DNA of 64,000 nt from Cryobacterium sp. PH29-G1 (GTDB lineage Bacteria > Actinomycetota > Actinomycetes > Actinomycetales > Microbacteriaceae): assembly GCF_030063365.1 (NCBI RefSeq), contig NZ_JASISY010000005.1, positions 124,001 to 188,000 of the forward strand, given 5' to 3'. Numbering within the stretch: the first letter of the stretch is position 1; each line of letters begins with the position of its first letter. Under the pieces are notes generated by a model. It did no database searches. It was not told the origin of the DNA and was given only the letters and a program-made list of their open reading frames with translations. The translations under genes were made by a program, and so were the position numbers. Shown in pieces: positions 23,997-34,981 of this stretch.

Positions 23997-25760
23997 TTAG
24001 ACGAAGTGCTTAGCGACGTCGGCGACTTCAACCTGTTCGCGGTCGCCGGTGCGACGGTTCCAGAGTTCGACGATACCGTCGGCGGCGCCGCGACCCACGA
24101 TGACAATCCACGGCACGCCGATCAGTTCGGCGTCGCCGAACTTCACGCCGGGCGAGACCTTGCGACGGTCGTCGTAAAGCACGTCGCGGCCGGTGGCCTC
24201 CAGTGCGGCAACAACGGCTTCTGAGGTATCGAAGACGATCTCATCCCGGCCGGTGGCGATCACGTGCACGTCAAACGGAGTGACCGATTCGGGCCAGATT
24301 AGGCCCTTTGCATCGTTGTTAAGTTCGGCGATAACCGCAAGAATGCGGGTAACACCGATACCGTATGAGCCCATCGTGACGGTGACCAGTTTGCCGTTCT
24401 CGTCGAGAACCTTGAGGCCGAGCACCTCGGCGTACTTGCGGCCAAGCTGAAAAACGTGCCCGATTTCCATGCCACGAATAAGCTCGACCGGGCCAGAGCC
24501 ATCGGGGGCCGGGTCGCCGGCGCGCACGTCGGAAGCCTCGACCACGTCGTCAATGGAAAAGTCGCGGCCGGCGACGAGGCCGAACACGTGGCGGCCCGCT
24601 TCGTTGGCGCCGGTGATCCACTCGGTGCCGGCGACCACGCGCGGGTCGACCAGAAAGCGGATGCCGGTGGTCGATTTCTCGCCGAGAACCGCGCCGTCGG
24701 CGCCCCACGGACCGATATATCCCTTAACCAGGCCGGGGTACCTGGCGAAATCGGCTTCGTTGGCCGCTTCAACCTCGGCCGGACCGAACGCCACTTCGAC
24801 GCGCTTGAGATCAACGTCGCGGTCGCCGGGAACACCGATCGCGATCAGTTCACGCGTGCCGTCAAGGCTCGTGAGCGCGAGTACGACGTTCTTAAGTGTG
24901 TCGGCGGCCGTCCACTCGCGGCCATCGGGCCGGGGGTGTTCGGAGTTCGCTTTGTCGACCAGAGTCTGAATGGTCGGGGTGTCGGGAGTGTCGAAGACCT
25001 GCGCGGCCGGCAGCGCACTGAAGTCATGGTCGGCCGGAACGAGGGTGCGGAACGCCTCGATGTTGGCCGCATAGCCACCGGCGCTGCGCACGAAGGTGTC
25101 TTCACCGACGGGGGTCGGGTGCAAGAATTCTTCGCTCTTGGAGCCACCCATCGCGCCGGCATCCGCTTGCACGATCTCGTACTCGAGGCCGAAGCGGGTG
25201 AAGATGCGCTCGTAGGCGTCGCGCTGCAGCTGGTAGCTCACGTCGAGGCCCGCGTCGGTGTAGTCGAAGGAGTAGGCATCCTTCATGGTGAACTCGCGGC
25301 CGCGCAGCAATCCGCCACGCGAGCGGGCTTCATCGCGGTACTTGTCCTGAATCTGATAGATCGACAGCGGCAGGTCTTTGTAGCTGCTGTAGAGATCCTT
25401 CACGAGCAGCGCGAAGACCTCTTCGTGCGTGGGCGCGAGCAACATGTCGGAGCCCTTGCGGTCTTTCAGGCGAAACAATCCCTCGCCGTACTCGTCCCAG
25501 CGCCCGGTCACCTCGTAGGGTTCGCGCGGCAGGAGCGCCGGGAAATGCACCTCAAACGCACCCGCAGCGTGCATTTCTTCACGGATGATCCGCTCCACTT
25601 TGGCCTTCACCCGCAGGCCGAGCGGCAGCCAGGCGAAGATACCCGGGGCCTGACGACGGATGTAGCCGGCCCGCACGAGCAGGCGGTGGCTGGTCACCTC
25701 GGCATCGGAGGGGTCTTCGCGGAGTGTACGGAGGAAGTAGTTGGAGAGACGTGTAGGCAC
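23997..25760 (-). CDS. proS: Prolyl-tRNA synthetase
   Basis: 587 aa, bacterial long type with an editing insertion. Motif 2 ([24 protein letters not shown]), the editing (INS) domain near residues 225-400, motif 3 ([16 protein letters not shown]) and the C-terminal anticodon-binding domain are all complete. The start [22 protein letters not shown] is the usual N-terminus. It charges tRNA-Pro. It belongs to the conserved ispG-proS-nusA series but is separated here from ispG by the exopolysaccharide operon. Confidence 0.98.
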
Positions 25761-25805
25761 TCGTCTACCTTACGCGCGCGCCGCCGAACGCTCCCCCACG
25801 GCCGT

Positions 25806-26297
25806 TTACGGCGTCGGGCGAGTGAATATCGGGCGGCAGGTGGTGCAGACTTCGCCGTCGGCGGTGCCGCTCGCGGCCTCGCGCATGGCCTTGTTTTCGC
25901 TGCCCAGTCGTTCGTGCAGGGCCCAGACGAGCAGGGCAACGGCGGCGGCGGCCAGGGCGGGACGTGCCAGTCCGCTGAAGACCGGCTCCAGCGAGTGAGC
26001 TTCAGTGGTCAGATACAGTGCGATCAGACCCAGAATAGGCCAGCGAGTGTCGCACATGGTGGCGTCGGCGCCGATGGGGGTGCCCAGGTAGCTCGACACG
26101 ATGAGACCGATGAGGCCGGAGCCCACCGCCGTGACCGGAACGGTCCACCACACGGCGGGGCCAGCCACCGACACCAGGCCGGCGGTCAGCACGAGGCCCA
26201 CGAACACCGCGACGGCGACTCCGAGCGCGATCAGCCAGCGTCGAACGGGCCAGGTGAGCAGGTCAGCGAACACGGCGGGCTCGTGCTGGGGCACCAA
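25806..26297 (-). CDS. Small membrane protein with C-terminal CTTC motif
   Basis: 163 aa, apparently from a TTG at 26297 (GTG at 26294 is an alternative); no clear ribosome site, so the start is uncertain. Four hydrophobic helices (about residues 20-42, 46-68, 84-102 and 108-126) are followed by a charged cytoplasmic tail ending in a CxxC pair (CTTC). No family recognised. It lies between proS and the exopolysaccharide operon and is divergent from the latter. It may be a local hypothetical gene. Confidence 0.5.
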   Translation of the reverse strand: MVPQHEPAVFADLLTWPVRRWLIALGVAVAVFVGLVLTAGLVSVAGPAVWWTVPVTAVGSGLIGLIVSSYLGTPIGADATMCDTRWPILGLIALYLTTEAHSLEPVFSGLARPALAAAAVALLVWALHERLGSENKAMREAASGTADGEVCTTCRPIFTRPTP

Positions 26298-26605
26298 GAA
26301 TGGCGATCGTCGGTGGCATGCAACCTCTATTTCGTCTGGATGCTGTCGGCACGGAATCCACTATACCCGATGGGGTATTCAGTACCGAACTCACGATCCC
26401 TGACGGCGGAGCGGAGACGCGAATAATACCACCCAAATTGGGGGGTCCGCCAGCCTCGAGGTCCACATGGACGCGACAGGGAAAACACCACTATGGTCGC
26501 AATGTCGAAGCTGAGTCTTATTCAGTAATCAGCAGCGTGCGACCCGCGCAACGAACCCGACAGTCAAGCCGTTCGCGTGCCGCACTACCCGAGGAGAGCA
26601 CACCG
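26298..26605. other. Intergenic region upstream of the exopolysaccharide operon
   Basis: 308 bp without a supportable gene. It should hold the promoters of the divergent membrane-protein gene and the exopolysaccharide operon. One dyad (26363-26378) is visible. No convincing sigma70 -35/-10 pair was found by eye. Confidence 0.6.
26363..26378. promoter_or_regulatory. Dyad ATACCC-GATG-GGGTAT (possible operator)
   Basis: Six-base perfect arms with a 4-base spacer in the divergent promoter region, about 230 bases before the exopolysaccharide leader ORF. The shape resembles operators of CsoR-like and other small repressors, but no such repressor gene is nearby. Confidence 0.3.
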
Positions 26606-26683
26606 ATGCATAATTTTTCACGCGTTCAGCGTGGCCGCGCCGCCCCGGCCCGCCCGTCTGCAGCAGCCGGGAAAGTCCATTGA
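26606..26683 (+). CDS. 25-residue leader ORF of the exopolysaccharide operon
   Basis: The ATG at 26606 has an excellent GAGGAGAG site 6-14 bases upstream, the best ribosome site in this part of the window. The peptide is basic (Arg/Lys/His with Ala/Pro) and shows no membrane segment. Its TGA overlaps the TTG start of the next gene (TTGA), so ribosomes reaching its stop could reinitiate there. It could be a translational leader that couples the operon, an attenuator-type leader or a real small protein. It has no known homologue that I recognise. Confidence 0.55.
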   Translation: MHNFSRVQRGRAAPARPSAAAGKVH

Positions 26684-27144
26684 CGTTCGTCGACGAAAGC
26701 GTCGCCTTGGCTGCACAAGCGACCTTCGGCCGAGACGGTGCGATGTTCGAGAGCCTGCTCGGCTTCGTGGCCCAGCTGAGCCTGGTGCTGTGGAGCTTGG
26801 TGATCGTGACGGCGGTCTTCCGTTTCGTCGGCATGCGGATCTATCGAAAGGGAGCCAACCAAGCGGCCACCGTCGAAACAGCGGTCTCGCCGGCCACGGT
26901 CCCGGCCCTGGTGGTCACGGTCCCGCTTACCTCGTCCGCAGTCCCGTCGGCTCCGGTCCCGTCGGCTGTGGTTCCTTCGACTGTGGTTGCTTCGACTGTG
27001 GTTCCTTCGACTGTGGTTCCGATTAGTGTCGCTACATCCGTGGTGGTGGTGCCCAGAACGCCGCGAAATCCGCGCAGCCCACGCGCCCAACCCCGATCCA
27101 GCGCGCAGGTGCCCGCCCACGCCGCCAACTCTATGGAGTTGTGA
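26680..27144 (+). CDS. Small membrane protein with PSTVV repeats, exopolysaccharide operon
   Basis: 154 aa from a TTG that overlaps the leader ORF's stop. One hydrophobic helix (about residues 27-50), a basic patch (RIYRKG), then a long Val/Pro/Ser/Thr low-complexity stretch with about four PSTVV repeats from a 15-bp DNA repeat, and a basic Pro/Arg/Ser end. The GTGA overlap with the GT2 gene makes it the immediate partner of the synthase. By position it recalls the small accessory membrane proteins (PgaD/IcaD type) that partner synthase GT2 enzymes, but there is no sequence match. The function is inferred only. Confidence 0.6.
   Translation: MTFVDESVALAAQATFGRDGAMFESLLGFVAQLSLVLWSLVIVTAVFRFVGMRIYRKGANQAATVETAVSPATVPALVVTVPLTSSAVPSAPVPSAVVPSTVVASTVVPSTVVPISVATSVVVVPRTPRNPRSPRAQPRSSAQVPAHAANSMEL
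26938..27020. repeat. 15-bp coding tandem repeat (PSTVV)
   Basis: TCGACTGTGGTTCCT-type units repeat every 15 bases with small changes (one GCT for CCT, an earlier TCGGCTGTGGTTCCT), encoding PS(T/A)VV in the small membrane protein. Confidence 0.85.
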
Positions 27145-28487
27145 GCGTGGACATTGCGATACTGATCTTCTGGCTGTTCGCCGGCGTGAGCATCCTTTAC
27201 GTCGTGCATTTTGGCGTCTACCTGGTGGGCGCCAACTTCTACGACGTCTGGCAGCAGCGCCGGAAGGGGATGCGGGGCGAGCGGCGTTCCGGCGAATTTG
27301 AAGAGGAATGCGCGGCAACGGCGACTTGGAACCGCCGAGCCAGAGCCGAGGTGCCGGGGCTGGTCTCCGTGGTCATCGCGGCCCACAACGAGGAAGCGGC
27401 AATCGTTCGCACGCTCGATTCCGTGCGGCGCAGCACCTACCGATCCTTCGAGGTAATCGTCGCGGACGACGCGTCCACCGACCTCACCGGTCGGTTGGTG
27501 CGCGACTACCAGGTGCGTCACCCCGAGATGCCCCTGCGAATCGTGCGGATGCACGAGAACGTCGGCAAGGGCGTGGCCCTCAACTCGGCTCTGCGCCGGC
27601 ACTGCCACGGTCAGTTCGTTATGACGCTCGACGCAGACTCGATCCTTGAGGCCAACTCCATCAGAAACGCGCTGTCCTACTTCGACGACCCCAATGTTGC
27701 CGGTGTCGCCGCTAACGTGCAGATCATGGAGGAGACGACCGTACTCGGCCTTCTCCAGCGGTTCGAGCATATGATCGGCTATCGCTCAAAGAAGCTCTAC
27801 TCGATATTGAACTGTGAATTCGTGGTGGGTGGGGTGGCCTCCACTTATCGGATGCGCGTGCTCCGCAAAGTCGGCTTCTATGACACCGACACCCTGACCG
27901 AAGACATCGGCCTGAGCATGAAGATCACCAGGCTGGGCAACCGGCGCTTTCGCATGGTCTACGGCGCTGACGTTGTGGCGAAGACCGAGGGCGTGCTCAC
28001 CCTGCCCGCATTGGCGAAGCAGCGTTTGCGTTGGAAATATGGAAGCATCCAGAATCTCATCAAGTACCGCGCGTTGCTGTTCAACCCCAGCCGCCGGTAC
28101 GCCCGCACGTTGACGTATTACCGGATGCCGATGGCGGTGCTCAGCGAGTTCACGCTGCTGCTGTCACCCCTCGCTTGGACGTACGCGGTGTACTGGTCGC
28201 TGGTCACTCAGACGCCCGCCCTGATTCTCGGCGCCTACGCCACCATTACTGCGTACACGCTCCTGACGATCTGGATGGACGAGAACCTGACTACACGCGA
28301 GCGCGCTCGACTGTCCGTCTACGCCCCGACGGCGTACCTCCTGTTCTACATCATGGACCTGGTGCAACTGACAGCGGCGCTTCGCTGCATCGCACGCTCA
28401 CGCGGCCTGGTCCGCCGCTCTGAGATCAACGTCTGGACGTCACCACAGCGGGCCGGCACCGTGCTGGAGGTCGCTCATGCCGCGTAA
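27141..28487 (+). CDS. Processive family 2 glycosyltransferase (beta-polysaccharide synthase)
   Basis: 448 aa. An N-terminal helix (about 5-27) is followed by the GT2 domain, with UDP-sugar binding DDAS (in VADDASTD), DXD-type DADS, TEDIGLSM (catalytic TED) and QRLRWKYG (the QxxRW motif of processive enzymes). Further C-terminal helices (about 320-345, 355-370, 385-405) give the usual synthase channel. The set matches PgaC/IcaA/NodC-like synthases of beta-linked GlcNAc polymers better than mannosyl or glucosyl transferases, because two polysaccharide deacetylases follow; the exact sugar is inferred. GTG start in the upstream stop (4-bp overlap). The next gene starts 11 bp before its end. Confidence 0.9.
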   Translation: MSVDIAILIFWLFAGVSILYVVHFGVYLVGANFYDVWQQRRKGMRGERRSGEFEEECAATATWNRRARAEVPGLVSVVIAAHNEEAAIVRTLDSVRRSTYRSFEVIVADDASTDLTGRLVRDYQVRHPEMPLRIVRMHENVGKGVALNSALRRHCHGQFVMTLDADSILEANSIRNALSYFDDPNVAGVAANVQIMEETTVLGLLQRFEHMIGYRSKKLYSILNCEFVVGGVASTYRMRVLRKVGFYDTDTLTEDIGLSMKITRLGNRRFRMVYGADVVAKTEGVLTLPALAKQRLRWKYGSIQNLIKYRALLFNPSRRYARTLTYYRMPMAVLSEFTLLLSPLAWTYAVYWSLVTQTPALILGAYATITAYTLLTIWMDENLTTRERARLSVYAPTAYLLFYIMDLVQLTAALRCIARSRGLVRRSEINVWTSPQRAGTVLEVAHAA

Positions 28488-30246
28488 GCGCCGGCGGATC
28501 GTCCGGGTGTTGTTGAATCCGCTCGTCGTCTCCTTGGTTGTGGTCGTCGTGTTCACCACCGGATGGTTGCTATACACCGGCGGGAGCACGAGCATCGCTG
28601 CGGCGCGGCCCGGCGCCAACCTGCTCCCCTCGCTCGATTCGAGCGCGTCGACCGAACCTGCCGGCGGTTGGACCGTCGGCCACAGCGGGGATGCCCAAGC
28701 CGCACTGTCGCTGGTCGACGGGCGGCTGAACGACCAGGCACTGAAGCTCGACATCACCCGGTACGTTTCGGGTGATGTCACGCTGACGAGCCCACGCGTG
28801 GACGTCGAGCCGGGTGCGACTTATCTGTTCAAGGCGTTCACCACCACCGACGCAGATTTCACTCTGCTGGCCCGTAAACATCATGCCGACGGCAGCACGA
28901 CCCTGGATCAGCTGCCGAACCAGCTTGAGCGGCCGGGCAATGCCCCGTTCACCGTGAGCGATGCCTTCGACAGCGTAGAAACGACGACCGCAGTGGAGTA
29001 CGTCTTCCGGTTCGCATCGGAGGGTACCGTGCGGATCGAGGGCGCGTACCTCGAGGCGGCAGACGACGTCCAGCCGCCACCCACAGTGGCGACAGCCCCC
29101 AACCTTGTCCCCAACCCCGGCCTCGCCGCACCCGAATCGGGCATTCCCGACTCATGGTCTCCGTACACCGCCGGGGTGTCGACCGTGGAGTCCGGACGCA
29201 CCGAGGACGAGCGCGGCGGTTATCTCTGGACCCGCATCGCGAATTACCAGAGCGGTGAGGCGAAGTGGCAATATCGGCCGGTGCCGGTGACCGCCGACGG
29301 ATACTTCGCGTTCGACGCGACATATCAGTCGGAGCGCGAGGTGGACGTGGTGGCGGAGTTTGAGCTCGCGAACGGCGAGCGCGCGTTCAACAACCTGGCG
29401 ACGGTTCCCCCGGCGGGAGAATGGACAACCATTCATTCCGCCTTCCAAGTCCCCGACGGTGCGAAAACGGCGATGGTCACCCTGGTGTCACACGGGGACG
29501 GTACCACCGGCATCCGCGACTTGTCGGTTACCGACGTCACCAAGCCGGGACCCCTCCGCTGGGACCAGCCGATGGTCTCGATCACCTTCGATGACGGCTG
29601 GCAGTCGGTGTACGACCACGCTCTGCCTCTGCTGGCACAGCACGGATTCCTCTCCACCCAGTACGTCAATGCCAGCTCCATCGAAACGCCGAACTTCATG
29701 AATGCTGCCGAGGTGCAGCAACTACACGAGGCCGGACATGAGATCGCGTCACACAGCTACGACCACGTTGATCTCACGTCGATCGGCACCGACCGGCTGG
29801 ACGATGAGATGCGCAAGGGTGAGGCGGCGCTGGCGGCTGCCGACCTCGGCACCGACAGCTTCGCCCCGCCGTTCGGACGATCTGACCCTCAGGTCGACTG
29901 GTACGCGCGCAAGTACTTCGACACGGTGCGTGGAACACGCGGCGGCATCAACACCCGGCAGAGCCTCGACCCCGGTGACCTGTTGGTCTTCTACGTGACC
30001 GACGAGACCACGCCGGACAGCCTGGCCGCAGCGCTGGCCGAAACGTCCCGGATGCATGGCTGGCTCATCCTCGTGTACCACCAGATTGCGACCGCCCCGG
30101 CGACCGGCACCCAAGAGGACACCATCGCGGGCGACCGGAGCACGATCACCGAGGATGCCCTCGCCGCCCAGTTGCAGCTGATCGAGGACAGCGGCATCGA
30201 AGTCCAGCCGGTCACGCAGGCGTTCGCGCGGCTGCGACTCCCTTAG
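28477..30246 (+). CDS. Membrane-anchored polysaccharide deacetylase (CE4)
   Basis: 589 aa. A basic N-terminus precedes one helix (about 13-33) that anchors it. An about 320-residue N-terminal portion consists of beta-sandwich, CBM/lectin-like regions. The C-terminal NodB-type CE4 domain has SITFDDGW, the metal ligands in HEIASHSYDHV (HxxxH), FAPPFGRSD and LVYHQ. CE4 enzymes remove N-acetyl groups from GlcNAc polymers such as chitin or PNAG. It overlaps the GT2 gene by 11 bp, so it is tightly coupled to the synthase. Its topology (extracytoplasmic, anchored) suits acting on the polymer as it leaves. Confidence 0.86.
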   Translation: MPRKRRRIVRVLLNPLVVSLVVVVVFTTGWLLYTGGSTSIAAARPGANLLPSLDSSASTEPAGGWTVGHSGDAQAALSLVDGRLNDQALKLDITRYVSGDVTLTSPRVDVEPGATYLFKAFTTTDADFTLLARKHHADGSTTLDQLPNQLERPGNAPFTVSDAFDSVETTTAVEYVFRFASEGTVRIEGAYLEAADDVQPPPTVATAPNLVPNPGLAAPESGIPDSWSPYTAGVSTVESGRTEDERGGYLWTRIANYQSGEAKWQYRPVPVTADGYFAFDATYQSEREVDVVAEFELANGERAFNNLATVPPAGEWTTIHSAFQVPDGAKTAMVTLVSHGDGTTGIRDLSVTDVTKPGPLRWDQPMVSITFDDGWQSVYDHALPLLAQHGFLSTQYVNASSIETPNFMNAAEVQQLHEAGHEIASHSYDHVDLTSIGTDRLDDEMRKGEAALAAADLGTDSFAPPFGRSDPQVDWYARKYFDTVRGTRGGINTRQSLDPGDLLVFYVTDETTPDSLAAALAETSRMHGWLILVYHQIATAPATGTQEDTIAGDRSTITEDALAAQLQLIEDSGIEVQPVTQAFARLRLP

Positions 30247-30303
30247 GCGCCCTTCGGCGGTGCAGCTCGTGCCGTCGGCCACCCGAAGCGAATGGAAGAA
30301 CTG

Positions 30304-32091
30304 ATGATCAGAAGCAGAACCGGTGTACGGGGAGCACGTGTCAGGCTCGCCTCCGTCGTCGTGGCGGGGACGGCCATGGCGACCGCGCTGCTGGCGCCCG
30401 GGTTGGCGAACGCCGCCGTGAACAACCCCGCGCCCGCGGCGCTGGTGTCGTTCACCTTCGACGACGGCCTGGCCAGTTCCATCACGCAGGCCGCACCGAC
30501 ACTGCAGAAGTACGGACTCACCGGTACCGACTATGTCCCGACCAACTGCATCGGCATGACCACCGTGCCCAACACCTGCCGCGCCAATACCGACAGGCCA
30601 TACATGTCGTGGGATCAGGTCGTACAGCTGCGGGACACCTACGGGTGGGAGATCGGGGCGCACACTCTCGACCATGTTTGCCTGGTCAGCGCGGGCGGTG
30701 ACTGCCAGACGAAGAAGTTGACGGCGGCTCAGCTCGATGCCCAGCTTTCCGACAGTAAGTCGGCCCTCGCCGCGCACGGTATCGACGCGACCGCGTTCGC
30801 TCCGCCGTACGGCGATTACGATATGACTGCTGTCGCCCAGGTGGCCAAGTACTACACGTCGATGCGCGGATTCGCTGAGCTCGGCAATAACATTTGGCCG
30901 CTCGGCGACTACTTGCTGCGCAATGTCCCCGTTCAGGAGGTGACCACGCCGGTGGCCAACCTGAAGGCGCAGGTTGACGCGGCGATCGCCAGCCAGACAT
31001 GGCTGGTATTCAGCTTCCACGACATCGTGCCGAGCCCCAGCCAGAACCCGGACGACTACCAATACGGCACGGCCGAGCTCGATCAGCTGGCCGCGTACGT
31101 GAAGACCAAGGTGGCGGCGGGCCAAATCACGAACGTCAACGTCAGTCAGGGCCTGGTCAACGGCACCCCGAACAAGATGCCGAACCCCACGTTCAACAAC
31201 GGACTCGGTGACGGCTGGCGCACCGACGCCCCGACGACGATCACGGCGGACGCCGCGAACAACGGAAGCTACCCCGACTTCGCCAAGTCGGTGAAGCTGG
31301 TCTCTGGCGCATCGACCGGCCACCTCTTCTCGCCGCAGGTCGCCGTAACCCCCGGGACTAACTATCTGTACAAGACCTACCTCAACGTCGCAGCGATCAA
31401 GAGCGGCGAGGTGGCGTTCTACGTCGACGAGTACAACGCGGCCGGCAACTGGGTCTCCGGGCAGTATCGAAAGCGGGAGAACTCCCACTGGGTGGAAAAG
31501 CTGAATTTCACCTACATGCCGAGCTCAACGAACGTTGCCAAGGCCAGCCTGCAGGTCATCGTCGCGGGGACCGGCATTACGGCCTACCTGGACAATGTGG
31601 AGCTGCTGGCGCTCGGCGCGGAGATTCCGCCGACGCCGGCCACCAACCTGGTCGCCAACGGCACCTTCGACGCCGGTATCAGTAGCGGCTGGCGAACCGA
31701 CGCGCCGGCCGTCATCCTCGCCGACACCGCCAACAACGGCGCCCCGGACAATCCGGCGAACTCGGTGAAAATGCAGGGTCAAACGGCCAATGCCCACTTG
31801 TTCTCGCCGCAGGTCGCCGTGACGCCGGGCAACTACAGCATCTCGGCCTACCTCAACATCAAGAACCGTACGGCCGGTGAGGTCGGCTGGTACATCGACG
31901 AGTACGACGCCAACGGCAATTGGATCTCCGGCCAGTGGAAGCTCGCCAGCACGACGCTCGGCGTCACCAACGTCGACCTGAGCTACTCGCCCAGCACGAC
32001 CAACGTGGCCAAGGCCAGCTTGCAGGTGTATGTCACCGGTAACTCCGGAGTGCTGGCTTACCTGGACGATGTCCGGTGGTGGCGCCTGTGA
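30304..32091 (+). CDS. Secreted polysaccharide deacetylase with two C-terminal binding modules
   Basis: 595 aa from the ATG at 30304, which has a GGAAGAA site; an ATG four codons upstream fits less well. A Sec signal peptide (about 1-35, ending near NAA) is followed by a CE4 domain (about 40-285) with SFTFDDGL, the HTLDH metal motif, FAPPYGDYD and FSFHD. Two tandem beta-sandwich modules (about 292-441 and 446-595) share GWRTDAP, HLFSPQVAVTPG, the GEVxxYxDEY segment, STNVAKASLQV and AYLD(N/D)V, so they arose by duplication and probably bind the polymer. Its end overlaps the GH10-like gene by 4 bp. Confidence 0.86.
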   Translation: MIRSRTGVRGARVRLASVVVAGTAMATALLAPGLANAAVNNPAPAALVSFTFDDGLASSITQAAPTLQKYGLTGTDYVPTNCIGMTTVPNTCRANTDRPYMSWDQVVQLRDTYGWEIGAHTLDHVCLVSAGGDCQTKKLTAAQLDAQLSDSKSALAAHGIDATAFAPPYGDYDMTAVAQVAKYYTSMRGFAELGNNIWPLGDYLLRNVPVQEVTTPVANLKAQVDAAIASQTWLVFSFHDIVPSPSQNPDDYQYGTAELDQLAAYVKTKVAAGQITNVNVSQGLVNGTPNKMPNPTFNNGLGDGWRTDAPTTITADAANNGSYPDFAKSVKLVSGASTGHLFSPQVAVTPGTNYLYKTYLNVAAIKSGEVAFYVDEYNAAGNWVSGQYRKRENSHWVEKLNFTYMPSSTNVAKASLQVIVAGTGITAYLDNVELLALGAEIPPTPATNLVANGTFDAGISSGWRTDAPAVILADTANNGAPDNPANSVKMQGQTANAHLFSPQVAVTPGNYSISAYLNIKNRTAGEVGWYIDEYDANGNWISGQWKLASTTLGVTNVDLSYSPSTTNVAKASLQVYVTGNSGVLAYLDDVRWWRL

Positions 32092-33779
32092 CGGTCGGTC
32101 GCCACGTGTTGAGATTTCTCACGTCGGGCATTCTGGTCGCCCTCGCTGGCTGCTCCGCGATCGCCCCGGGACAGGCACCCGGCGTGGTCATCGATCTGCT
32201 CCAGGAGGACTGGCGGTATATGCCGGGGGTGACGACCGACCCGGGCGGGTTGCAGGTCGCGGCCACCGCACGGAGCATCGTCGCGCAGGACGGCGCGGGC
32301 GGCCAGTCGAACCCGCCGCTCAACCTAGCCGGCATGCACCTCGTGGCCGCGGGGGATTTCGAGCTGAGCGCCTCGTTCACCGACGTGACCGCCGACGCGT
32401 CCTTGGCCCTGTACTACACCCCTCCGGTGATCGCCGACGAGTTCCGGATCGAGCCGGCCAGCCTGCGACTCACCCTCCGCGGTGCCGACCTCGAAATCGC
32501 GGTCTTCGACGGTTCACCCCAGCAGGATGTGACCGACCCCCGACCAGCCCGCGACGAACACGTGACGGTTGCGGATCCGAAGGCCGCGCTTTCCGTTCGT
32601 CGAACCGGGAATACGCTCGCGGTCGCCAGCGGCGATGACACCGTGTCGTCATTGCCCCTGGGCGGTGTGTTCGGATCGGGGGAAATCTGGCTGGGGCTGT
32701 CGAGCAGCGCCGGCTCCTTCCGGGTCAGCTCCTTCACCGCCACCGCGCCGCCGGGTGCCACCCTGAACACCGCGGGTCCCCAGGTCGCCCCGGCCGAACC
32801 GTCGGTGGGCGGGCTGCAGGCTCTCGCCTCCAGCACCCGCCCGGGCTTCACGATCGGTGCGGCTGTAGCATTGGGGCCGCTGGCCTCCGACGCGGACTAC
32901 GCGCGGAACCTCGTCGGCAATTTCGGTGCCGTCACGCCGGAGAACGCGATGAAACCGCAGTCGCTCTCCCCCAGGCAGTCCGTGTACACCTTCGAGGAGG
33001 CGGACGCCATCATCGCGATCGCCGAGAGCAAGGGTCTGGCCGTGCACGGCCACACCATTGCGTTCACCGAGTCGATGCCCCTCTGGATGCAGGAACTGTC
33101 CACCGGCAACGAGCTGGAACGCCGTGCCAGCGCCGAAGCGCTCCTGGACTACGTCACCGCCGTGGTGACGCACTTCAAGGGACGGCTCAAGTCGCTCGAC
33201 GTCGTCAATGAGCCATTCGACGCCGCCCAGGGGACCAGCATGCAGCAGAATATCTGGTACCGCGTTTTCGGGCCAGGGTATCCTGCCGTCGTTTCTCAGG
33301 CAGTCTACGACGCCGATCCGACGGTTCTGCAGTTCATCAACGAGAACGGGGCCGACGTACCAGGTCCCCGCCAGGATGCCGTGCTCAAGCTCGCGCTCGA
33401 CACCAACTCACGGGGCGGGCACATCTATGGTGTCGGGCTCCAGGCCCACGTCTATGACCTTGAGACCGACGCCATCTCCGCCGCCGACCTCGCCGATACG
33501 TTCACAATCTTCGAGGACGCCGGACTGTTCGTACGGATCTCAGAGAACGACGTCACGGACGACCTCGGCACTGACGCCCAGGCGAAGCAGTACACCACGG
33601 TATTGGCCGCCTGTCTACGCTCCCCGGCCTGCGTCTCCTACACGACGTGGGGTGTCGACGACCGCTACGACTGGTGGATCGACGACGACGACAATCTGCA
33701 GCAGGGCCACGATTTTCTGTTCAATGACGGGCAGCCGACGCCCGCCTACGACGCGATGAGGCAAGCTCTGGGCGGCTGA
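32088..33779 (+). CDS. GH10-family glycoside hydrolase lipoprotein (endo-beta-xylanase-like)
   Basis: 563 aa from a GTG overlapping the upstream stop (GTGA). A lipobox LAGC gives a lipid-anchored Cys22. Residues about 40-240 form an N-terminal beta-sandwich with no clear family. The C-terminal domain is GH10-like: ENAMK, HGHTIAFTESMPLW, the general acid/base Glu375 in DVVNEPF and the nucleophile Glu486 in ISENDV, then GVDDRYDWW. The normal HGHTLVWHSQ motif has lost its Trp-His, replaced by Phe-Thr, which alters the -1/-2 subsite seen in xylanases. It is therefore a GH10-fold hydrolase whose substrate is likely the polymer of this operon rather than xylan (inference). Confidence 0.82.
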   Translation: MTVGRHVLRFLTSGILVALAGCSAIAPGQAPGVVIDLLQEDWRYMPGVTTDPGGLQVAATARSIVAQDGAGGQSNPPLNLAGMHLVAAGDFELSASFTDVTADASLALYYTPPVIADEFRIEPASLRLTLRGADLEIAVFDGSPQQDVTDPRPARDEHVTVADPKAALSVRRTGNTLAVASGDDTVSSLPLGGVFGSGEIWLGLSSSAGSFRVSSFTATAPPGATLNTAGPQVAPAEPSVGGLQALASSTRPGFTIGAAVALGPLASDADYARNLVGNFGAVTPENAMKPQSLSPRQSVYTFEEADAIIAIAESKGLAVHGHTIAFTESMPLWMQELSTGNELERRASAEALLDYVTAVVTHFKGRLKSLDVVNEPFDAAQGTSMQQNIWYRVFGPGYPAVVSQAVYDADPTVLQFINENGADVPGPRQDAVLKLALDTNSRGGHIYGVGLQAHVYDLETDAISAADLADTFTIFEDAGLFVRISENDVTDDLGTDAQAKQYTTVLAACLRSPACVSYTTWGVDDRYDWWIDDDDNLQQGHDFLFNDGQPTPAYDAMRQALGG

Positions 33780-33790
33780 CGGTTCCTTAC

Positions 33791-33814
33791 CTCGAGGGCC
33801 TCGAGGCCCTCGAG
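33791..33814. terminator. 24-bp perfect palindrome between the GH10 gene and ispG
   Basis: A CTCGAG-type perfect dyad followed at 33814-33825 by GACCGGCCGGTC lies between converging genes. The symmetry on both strands and its position fit a bidirectional terminator at the end of the exopolysaccharide operon. There is no U-run. Confidence 0.7.
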
Positions 33815-33826
33815 ACCGGCCGGTCC

Positions 33827-34981
33827 CTACTTCGTTCCGACAGACACCGTGGGGCTACCCAGCTCAGCGGCCGGCATCTCGGCGGCGAGGCGGTTGGCCT
33901 CTTCGATCAGGGTCGCCACGATTTCGGACTCGGGAACGGTCTTAATGACCTCCCCACGCACGAAAATCTGGCCCTTGCCGTTGCCGCTGGCGACACCGAG
34001 GTCGGCATCGCGAGCCTCGCCTGGGCCGTTGACGACGCAACCCATAACGGCCACGCGCAACGGCACGGTCATACCCTCGAGCCCGTCGGTGACATCGTTG
34101 GCGAGCTTGTAGACATCAACCTGGGCCCGGCCACAGCTGGGGCAGGAGACGATCTCAAGCTTGCGCTCGCGCAGGTTGAGCGACTGCAGAATCTGCAGGC
34201 CCACCTTGATCTCCTCGGCCGGCGGGGCGCTGAGCGAGACACGGATGGTATCGCCGATGCCCTCACCGAGCAGAATACCGAACGCCGTGGCGCTCTTGAT
34301 AGTGCCCTGAAAGCTCGGTCCGGCTTCGGTGACGCCGAGGTGCAGTGGCCAGTCGCCGCGCTCGGCGAGCAGGCGGTAGGCCTTGACCATGACGACCGGG
34401 TCGTTGTGCTTGACCGAGATCTTGAAGTCGTGAAAGTCGTGTTCCTCGAACAGGCTGGCTTCCCAAACAGCGCTCTCGACGAGCGCCTCAGCGGTGGCCT
34501 TGCCGTACTTTTGCATGAGGCTGGGTTCGAGGGAGCCCGCGTTCACGCCGATGCGCAGACTCACGCCCGCTGCCTTGGCGGCGGCGGCGATTTTGCCCAC
34601 CTGATCGTCGAACTTGCGAATGTTGCCTGGGTTGACGCGCACGGCAGCGCAGCCGGCGTCGATGGCGGCGTAGACGTAGTTCGGCTGAAAGTGGATGTCG
34701 GCGATAACCGGAATTTGGCTCTTCTTCGCAATGATCGACAGCACCTCGGCGTCATCGCGGGTGGGCACAGCCACGCGTACGATGTCGCAGCCGCTCGCCG
34801 TGAGCTCGGCGATCTGCTGCAGGGTGCCGTTGATGTTGGTCGTCTGCGTCGTCGTCATCGATTGAACGCTCACGCGAGCGTCACCACCAACGAGCACCTT
34901 GCCCACCTTGATCTGGCGGGACTTGCGTCTCGGAGCGAGTACCTCGGGTATTTTGGGCATTCCCAAATTGATTGCAGCCAC
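33827..34981 (-). CDS. ispG: 4-hydroxy-3-methylbut-2-enyl diphosphate synthase (flavodoxin type)
   Basis: 384 aa, the non-mevalonate step that converts MEcPP to HMBPP using a 4Fe-4S cluster. The cluster ligands lie in [10 protein letters not shown] and [13 protein letters not shown], and the NPGNIRKFD segment is present. GTG start at 34981. In related actinomycetes ispG follows rseP and dxr closely; here about 13.6 kb of other genes separate them. Confidence 0.96.

Follow-up and report, generated by a model that had tools for sequence, protein, structure and literature searches.

The described systems nearest to the present locus include makers of poly-N-acetylglucosamine (PNAG). In the icaADBC and pgaABCD operons, a processive family 2 glycosyltransferase (GT2), a small membrane partner and a family 4 carbohydrate esterase (CE4) at the outer face occur together, and PgaB further joins its deacetylase to a hydrolase. 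In Streptomyces, PNAG has been reported for MatB, a single CE4-GT2 fusion that is accompanied by an accessory protein without known domain and by a downstream IcaC orthologue, whereas a family 10 glycoside hydrolase (GH10) is not mentioned in the part of that paper considered here (PMC5972031). We analysed a window of 64,000 nucleotides from the actinobacterium Cryobacterium sp. PH29-G1 (contig NZ_JASISY010000005.1, positions 124,001 to 188,000), in which six plus-strand open reading frames (ORFs) at 26606-33779 encode a leader, a small membrane protein (TM), a GT2, two CE4 enzymes (CE4a and CE4b) and a GH10 lipoprotein. This cassette likewise brings together an actinobacterial GT2 and CE4 with an accessory protein. 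It differs from icaADBC/pgaABCD in having two CE4s with binding modules, a GH10 where PgaB has its hydrolase domain and no IcaC-like or PgaA-like gene, and from MatAB in its separate synthase and its GH10. On balance we consider it probable that the cassette makes, deacetylates and perhaps trims an extracellular N-acetyl-hexosamine polymer, that is, a partly deacetylated poly-glucosamine. The cassette would thus be a variant of the synthase-dependent deacetylated exopolysaccharide systems, with a GH10 that is absent from the described systems compared here. No GT2-CE4-GH10 cassette was found among the matches listed in searches of mostly open-access literature, and the main text of an operon survey names neither GH10 nor Arthrobacter (PMC7112194).

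Searching named genomes with the GT2 gave 23 loci, of which 22 are cassettes (GT2 identity 71-85%) and one, L055, is not; L004, letter-identical to L044 over its 4338 bases, was excluded from the counts. TM, GT2, at least one CE4 and GH10 occur in unchanged order in 22/22 cassettes, with TM, GT2 and GH10 each present in all 22 (counting the GH10 of L049, which is interrupted by a contig end) and CE4a and CE4b in 21 each. The distances of the five proteins co-vary for all gene pairs (r 0.50-0.93; 0/999 permutations as high), most strongly for TM-GT2-CE4a, in a test on 18 of the 23 rows that left out L048, L049, L050, L052 and L053. The cassette is therefore a real co-inherited unit. Its genes are tightly packed, all six ORFs and their junctions being found in the DNA as an earlier sequence-only reading had placed them: a TTGA overlap between leader and TM (26680-26683), a GTGA overlap between TM and GT2 (27141-27144), an 11-bp overlap between GT2 and CE4a (28477-28487), a gap of 57 bp between CE4a and the second ATG of CE4b at 30304 (45 bp from the first ATG), and GTGA between CE4b and GH10 (32088-32091), provided that GH10 starts at GTG 32088; the last two values depend on the choice of start. 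The 11-bp overlap recurs in 17 of the 21 loci with both genes (8 bp in three, none in L048), and such exact repetition points to a layout beyond chance. The search for the same gene order in Microbacteriaceae that had been proposed with that reading thus found the order kept throughout but mainly elsewhere, as 17 of the 22 cassettes belong to Micrococcaceae (including Arthrobacter, Pseudarthrobacter and Kocuria), two to Cryobacterium and one each to Arachnia, Geodermatophilus and Blastococcus. Among the strains with the cassette are Arthrobacter oryzae DSM 25586 and Pseudarthrobacter chlorophenolicus Mor30.16.

The best sign that the polymer may contain an amino sugar is an extra glmS in Blastococcus (L054), where a full GlmS is encoded on the same strand as TM, 65 bp upstream of it. 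This protein scores 565 bits against a cutoff of 418. The genome has a second GlmS, to which the first is 41% identical; this second copy shares 87% identity with the one GlmS that was detected in Geodermatophilus. An analogous case is that of nodM within rhizobial nod operons. Pfam finds no O-acetyltransferase family in the five cassette proteins, the part of the locus scanned for it, and the simplest assumption is that the acetyl groups arrive with the sugar. Both observations argue against a plain beta-glucan or xylan-like chain on which the CE4s would act as O-acetyl esterases, an improbable alternative that is further disfavoured by the marginal similarity to BcsA and by a GH10 subsite that differs from the four catalytic-domain-only loci compared, even though GH10 enzymes and CE4 acetylxylan esterases often cooperate and the solved relatives of CE4a given below include a chain filed as endo-xylanase and an acetylxylan esterase. 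An amino-sugar polymer, as the sequence-only reading had proposed, is thus probable from the extra glmS of one locus in 22; its linkage may or may not be PNAG-like. Upstream of this glmS in L054 (5231-6577) we also observed a sugar-aminotransferase-like ORF, whose best NCBIfam model, PseC, gives 222 bits, below the cutoff of 423.5.

From these features we infer, with moderate confidence, the following course. The GT2, probably together with TM, would polymerise UDP-N-acetylglucosamine (or a close N-acetyl-hexosamine) at the inner membrane face and drive the chain outward through a channel of its own. At the outer face, the tethered CE4a would take off some acetyl groups from the emerging chain, and the secreted CE4b, held on the polymer by its carbohydrate-binding modules, would deacetylate farther from the cell. 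With low confidence, the membrane-anchored GH10 would then cut the polymer, either setting its length or freeing cells. The resulting poly-glucosamine, cationic and partly deacetylated, would serve as an adhesive or biofilm matrix.

Several observations weigh against this reading. The best NCBIfam model of the GT2, PgaC_IcaA (TIGR03937), matches over nearly the full length at 151 bits, far below its cutoff of 422, and the GT2 gives higher BLASTP scores with two plasmid GT2s of lactic acid bacteria (187 and 177 bits) than with PgaC (99 bits) or BcsA (41 bits). Among solved structures, the nearest relatives of CE4a are of several kinds, with a CE4 filed as endo-xylanase at the top and ArCE4A, peptidoglycan and chitin deacetylases and, within the first five, an acetylxylan esterase. 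A glmS adjoins only 1/22 cassettes, a search of the other loci with the L054 GlmS giving no match. GH10 enzymes are known for acting on xylan-like or cellulose-like beta-1,4 chains. Lastly, GH10 relatives of 70-72% identity occur in two genomes (G376 and G411) without cassette neighbours, CE4a or CE4b; of GT2 homologues, G376 has none at 1e-10 and G411 two weak ones (best 1.1e-11).

The GT2 (27141-28487, + strand; 448 aa) matches its Pfam family at 1.6e-28 and carries DADS, TED and QRxRW in 23/23 rows, together with ADDAS in 22 and ADDSS in one, so that the processive-synthase set DD, DxD, TED, Q(Q/R)xRW is present in every row. The 23 family rows form one clade (100/99) in a tree that was used for this clade only, as its bootstrap is unsettled and the branches to its outgroup are very long. 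Profile comparison with solved structures yielded nothing beyond GT-A matches of a general kind and weak matches to cellulose synthases. A cellulose operon was excluded, the BcsA match standing at 41 bits by BLASTP and the CelA model (TIGR03030) at 24.6 bits against a cutoff of 699. The product could be PNAG itself, a beta-1,6-linked polymer made by a Gram-positive PNAG operon whose accessory enzymes have been exchanged, and the nearly full-length match to PgaC_IcaA as the best model speaks for this. However, the window's GT2 falls 271 bits short of the family cutoff and L053 and L052 score 147 and 140 bits, compared with 648 bits for E. coli PgaC, and TM matches neither PgaD nor any NCBIfam model. 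PNAG as the product is therefore doubtful. The plasmid GT2s of lactic acid bacteria (pLP5401, pJM1E), at 28-29% identity, are closer than PgaC or BcsA and likewise follow a protein of 54-57 aa that has a single hydrophobic stretch, but no CE4 or GH10 is annotated in the stretches shown and no product was found for them. As a separate observation, this small protein stands directly before the GT2 in both plasmid loci (L075:1633-3054 and L076:3432-4831), and the pair may represent a wider two-gene synthase module. The next-nearest actinobacterial GT2 type consists of CE4-GT2 fusions in 3/3 scanned, 27 of 28 ORFs measuring 649-878 aa; these loci share the fused layout of MatB, whose reported PNAG counts in favour of an amino-sugar product here, but this is a likeness of architecture by which no locus is equated with MatB.

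TM (26680-27144, + strand; 154 aa, TTG start), present in all cassette loci, has a conserved N-terminal region of ~60 aa with one hydrophobic segment and a tail that is highly variable across relatives. In the window's copy, hydrophobic segments fall at 29-47 and at 106-124, the latter inside its own Val-rich repeat tail, and comparison with relatives suggests a single-pass protein. The repeats described for it by the sequence-only reading are indeed present, in the tail of this copy. No significant Pfam or NCBIfam family was found for TM, nor any match to PgaD; it is a probable synthase partner.

CE4a (28477-30246, + strand) is a predicted membrane-anchored polysaccharide deacetylase with N-terminal modules (Pfam Polysacc_deac_1, 4.4e-22) and a hydrophobic segment at 8-26; CBM_4_9 is detected in 12 of 16 CE4a members scanned (E<=0.01), the window's copy not being among these. 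CE4b (30304-32091, + strand; alternative longer start 30292) is a predicted secreted deacetylase (Pfam CE4, 8.1e-16) with a signal-like segment at 17-35 and two CBM_4_9-like modules (1e-6, in two stretches). The catalytic motifs are retained: in CE4a the MT1 Asp pair, the MT2 His pair and the MT5 His stand in 22/22 rows, save for the second MT2 His (21/22, with one Asp), and in CE4b MT1, MT2 and MT5 stand in 22/22, save for MT1 (21/22, one row being cut short). PNAG deacetylases are described as having four residues between the MT2 His pair and an MT3 Arg displaced to just before MT4 (PMC5855634). E. coli PgaB has the spacing of 4, whereas in the cassette the spacing, counted between alignment columns, is 3 in 44/44 CE4 rows (including the one CE4a row with Asp for the second His), which argues against PNAG. 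A plain member of the icaADBC/pgaABCD type was excluded on this His spacing and the GT2 model score. The spacing is not decisive for the linkage in Actinobacteria, since among 28 ORFs of the next-nearest GT2 type 24 likewise have a spacing of 3, and MatAB makes PNAG. On the other side, the canonical MT3 Arg (RxPY) is replaced by Ala in 44/44 rows, and an invariant Arg downstream may match the displaced Arg of the PNAG deacetylases.

The best NCBIfam model of both CE4s is HfsH of the Caulobacter holdfast (69 and 55 bits), yet far below its 400-bit cutoff, with the PgaB and IcaB models at 17-23 bits. The holdfast is built by a Wzy-type pathway and not by a synthase. This preference for HfsH over PgaB/IcaB counts against PNAG and for a beta-1,4-linked, chitosan-like polymer, as do the solved relatives of CE4a, which by their names act on beta-1,4 substrates, and the general habit of GH10 enzymes to cut beta-1,4 links. 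Against this, the GT2 reaches a low 45 bits with the NodC model, and a GT2 sequence cannot reveal the linkage. We thus place beta-1,4 tentatively, and with low confidence, ahead of beta-1,6, neither being probable in its own right. In these respects the difference from pga/ica and from cellulose synthase that had been claimed holds up in the model scores, the BLASTP comparison and the CE4 spacing, and the assignments of one GT2, two CE4s and a GH10 are all backed by Pfam matches. It is doubtful whether both CE4s are needed for deacetylation. The Arachnia assembly has CE4b only, a CE4a search giving just a weak match at CE4b's own place, and the Geodermatophilus assembly has CE4a only, CE4b being absent in a search made without a positive-control genome; the completeness of the two assemblies is not given, which limits these absences, but one CE4 seems to be enough. 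As for single copies, L050 (Kocuria) has a CE4b broken near its end, and L048 (Pseudarthrobacter Fe7) has frame breaks in CE4a and CE4b, which may be sequencing errors.

The GH10 protein (32076 or 32088-33779, + strand; PF00331, 8e-57) consists of a lipobox, an N-terminal domain without family (~aa 30-235) and the catalytic domain (aa 257-563). In an alignment that left out L049, the lipobox Cys26 is invariant in the 22 rows, as are the catalytic Glu379 and Glu490 and the residues that match E43, N44, K47, H80, N126, Q203, H205, W265 and W273 in the Cex numbering. The protein thus shares the family and the catalytic Glu pair with GH10 xylanases (e.g. PDB 1xyz), but in addition to its extra N-terminal domain it departs from them in the subsite, where W-H-N/S-Q becomes F-T/S-E-A. 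Of the xylose-subsite residues, W84 is replaced by F in 22/22 and Q87 by A in 21 and S in one, H85 is replaced by T in 13, S in eight and G in one, and position 86 is E in 22/22. Eleven other GH10 loci divide accordingly: E/A stands at 86/87 in each of the seven with the same N-terminal domain, while in the four with the catalytic domain only, 87 is Q and 86 is N or Q. Phe at the W84 place is found in four of the seven (three 68-71% relatives and one cassette copy), the three 34-35% relatives keeping W. On these residues the GH10 may not be a plain xylanase and probably represents a branch with a different substrate.

It is a rather unlikely proposition that the cassette is a self-trimming, chitosan-like exopolymer system, not described before, whose GH10 has been re-tooled from xylan to the amino-sugar polymer, with the invariant E332 and Ala/Ser333 binding glucosamine where xylanases have N/S and Q. 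If GH10 does act on glucosamine polymers, a much-studied enzyme family would gain a wider known range, and a new tool against PNAG- or chitosan-type biofilms may result. That the GH10 acts on this polymer is put in doubt by its 70-72% relatives, which occur in two genomes lacking a close GT2, CE4a and CE4b. The GH10 could be a passenger of the cassette, used for scavenging or defence and without part in polymer maturation. Besides these two genomes, 34-36% relatives in three more, for which the 11-18 kb of DNA retrieved contained no further cassette gene, point in this direction (two of the three have CE4-GT2-type synthases elsewhere), but GH10 is the last gene in 22/22 cassettes, whereas either CE4 can be missing, and a mere passenger is unlikely. 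GH10 relatives were further found on seven Streptomyces plasmid records. In one relative without cassette neighbours (L069, 10297-11991) the lipobox Cys is seemingly Gly, and this protein may be secreted and not anchored.

The cassette is rare within the genus, where it occurs in 3 of 57 sampled genomes. It was found in 1/299 genomes of a family sample and 2/396 of an order sample, both lower bounds, as the family, class and order searches scored 4 or 5 candidates per genome. The flanking DNA falls into eight groups (13 Arthrobacter/Pseudarthrobacter, three Cryobacterium including the window, two others, and five singletons), a rough count of contexts since the groups were built on DNA similarity. 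The cassette is apparently mobile. None of 41 pattern stretches on viral contigs encodes a relative, and an anti-phage system was excluded, as the five proteins gave no PADLOC match at 1e-5. Few Gram-positive synthase-dependent exopolysaccharides have been worked out, and the cassette offers a compact, testable case that is present in cultured Arthrobacter-type bacteria.

The leader ORF (26606-26683, + strand; 25 aa), an open frame that may be a translated leader coupled to the next gene, is the weakest component of the cassette. Its Shine-Dalgarno sequence and ATG are conserved in three Cryobacterium loci, the sole loci aligned for it, and no common leader protein was seen in the ORF lists of the remaining loci. 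A tRNA scan of the window found none, and an Rfam search of 25700-34200 gave two weak matches, both below gathering scores, which ruled out an RNA regulator. Promoter and terminator scans were at about shuffle level (1 versus 0.6 and 3 versus 4.1, respectively). The cassette sits between proS and ispG, both on the opposite strand and both above NCBIfam cutoffs, and a small minus-strand ORF without family match (25806-26297) adjoins proS. The ispG-proS interval was read in six cassette-free genomes of the genus, and in five of them proS lies within ~0.8 kb of ispG. In the sixth, G141, proS was not found in the 3.3 kb read, and the interval holds a serine-recombinase-like ORF (L091, 1388-2800; best NCBIfam model XisF, 116 bits, below cutoff), from which the ispG-proS interval may be an insertion hot spot.

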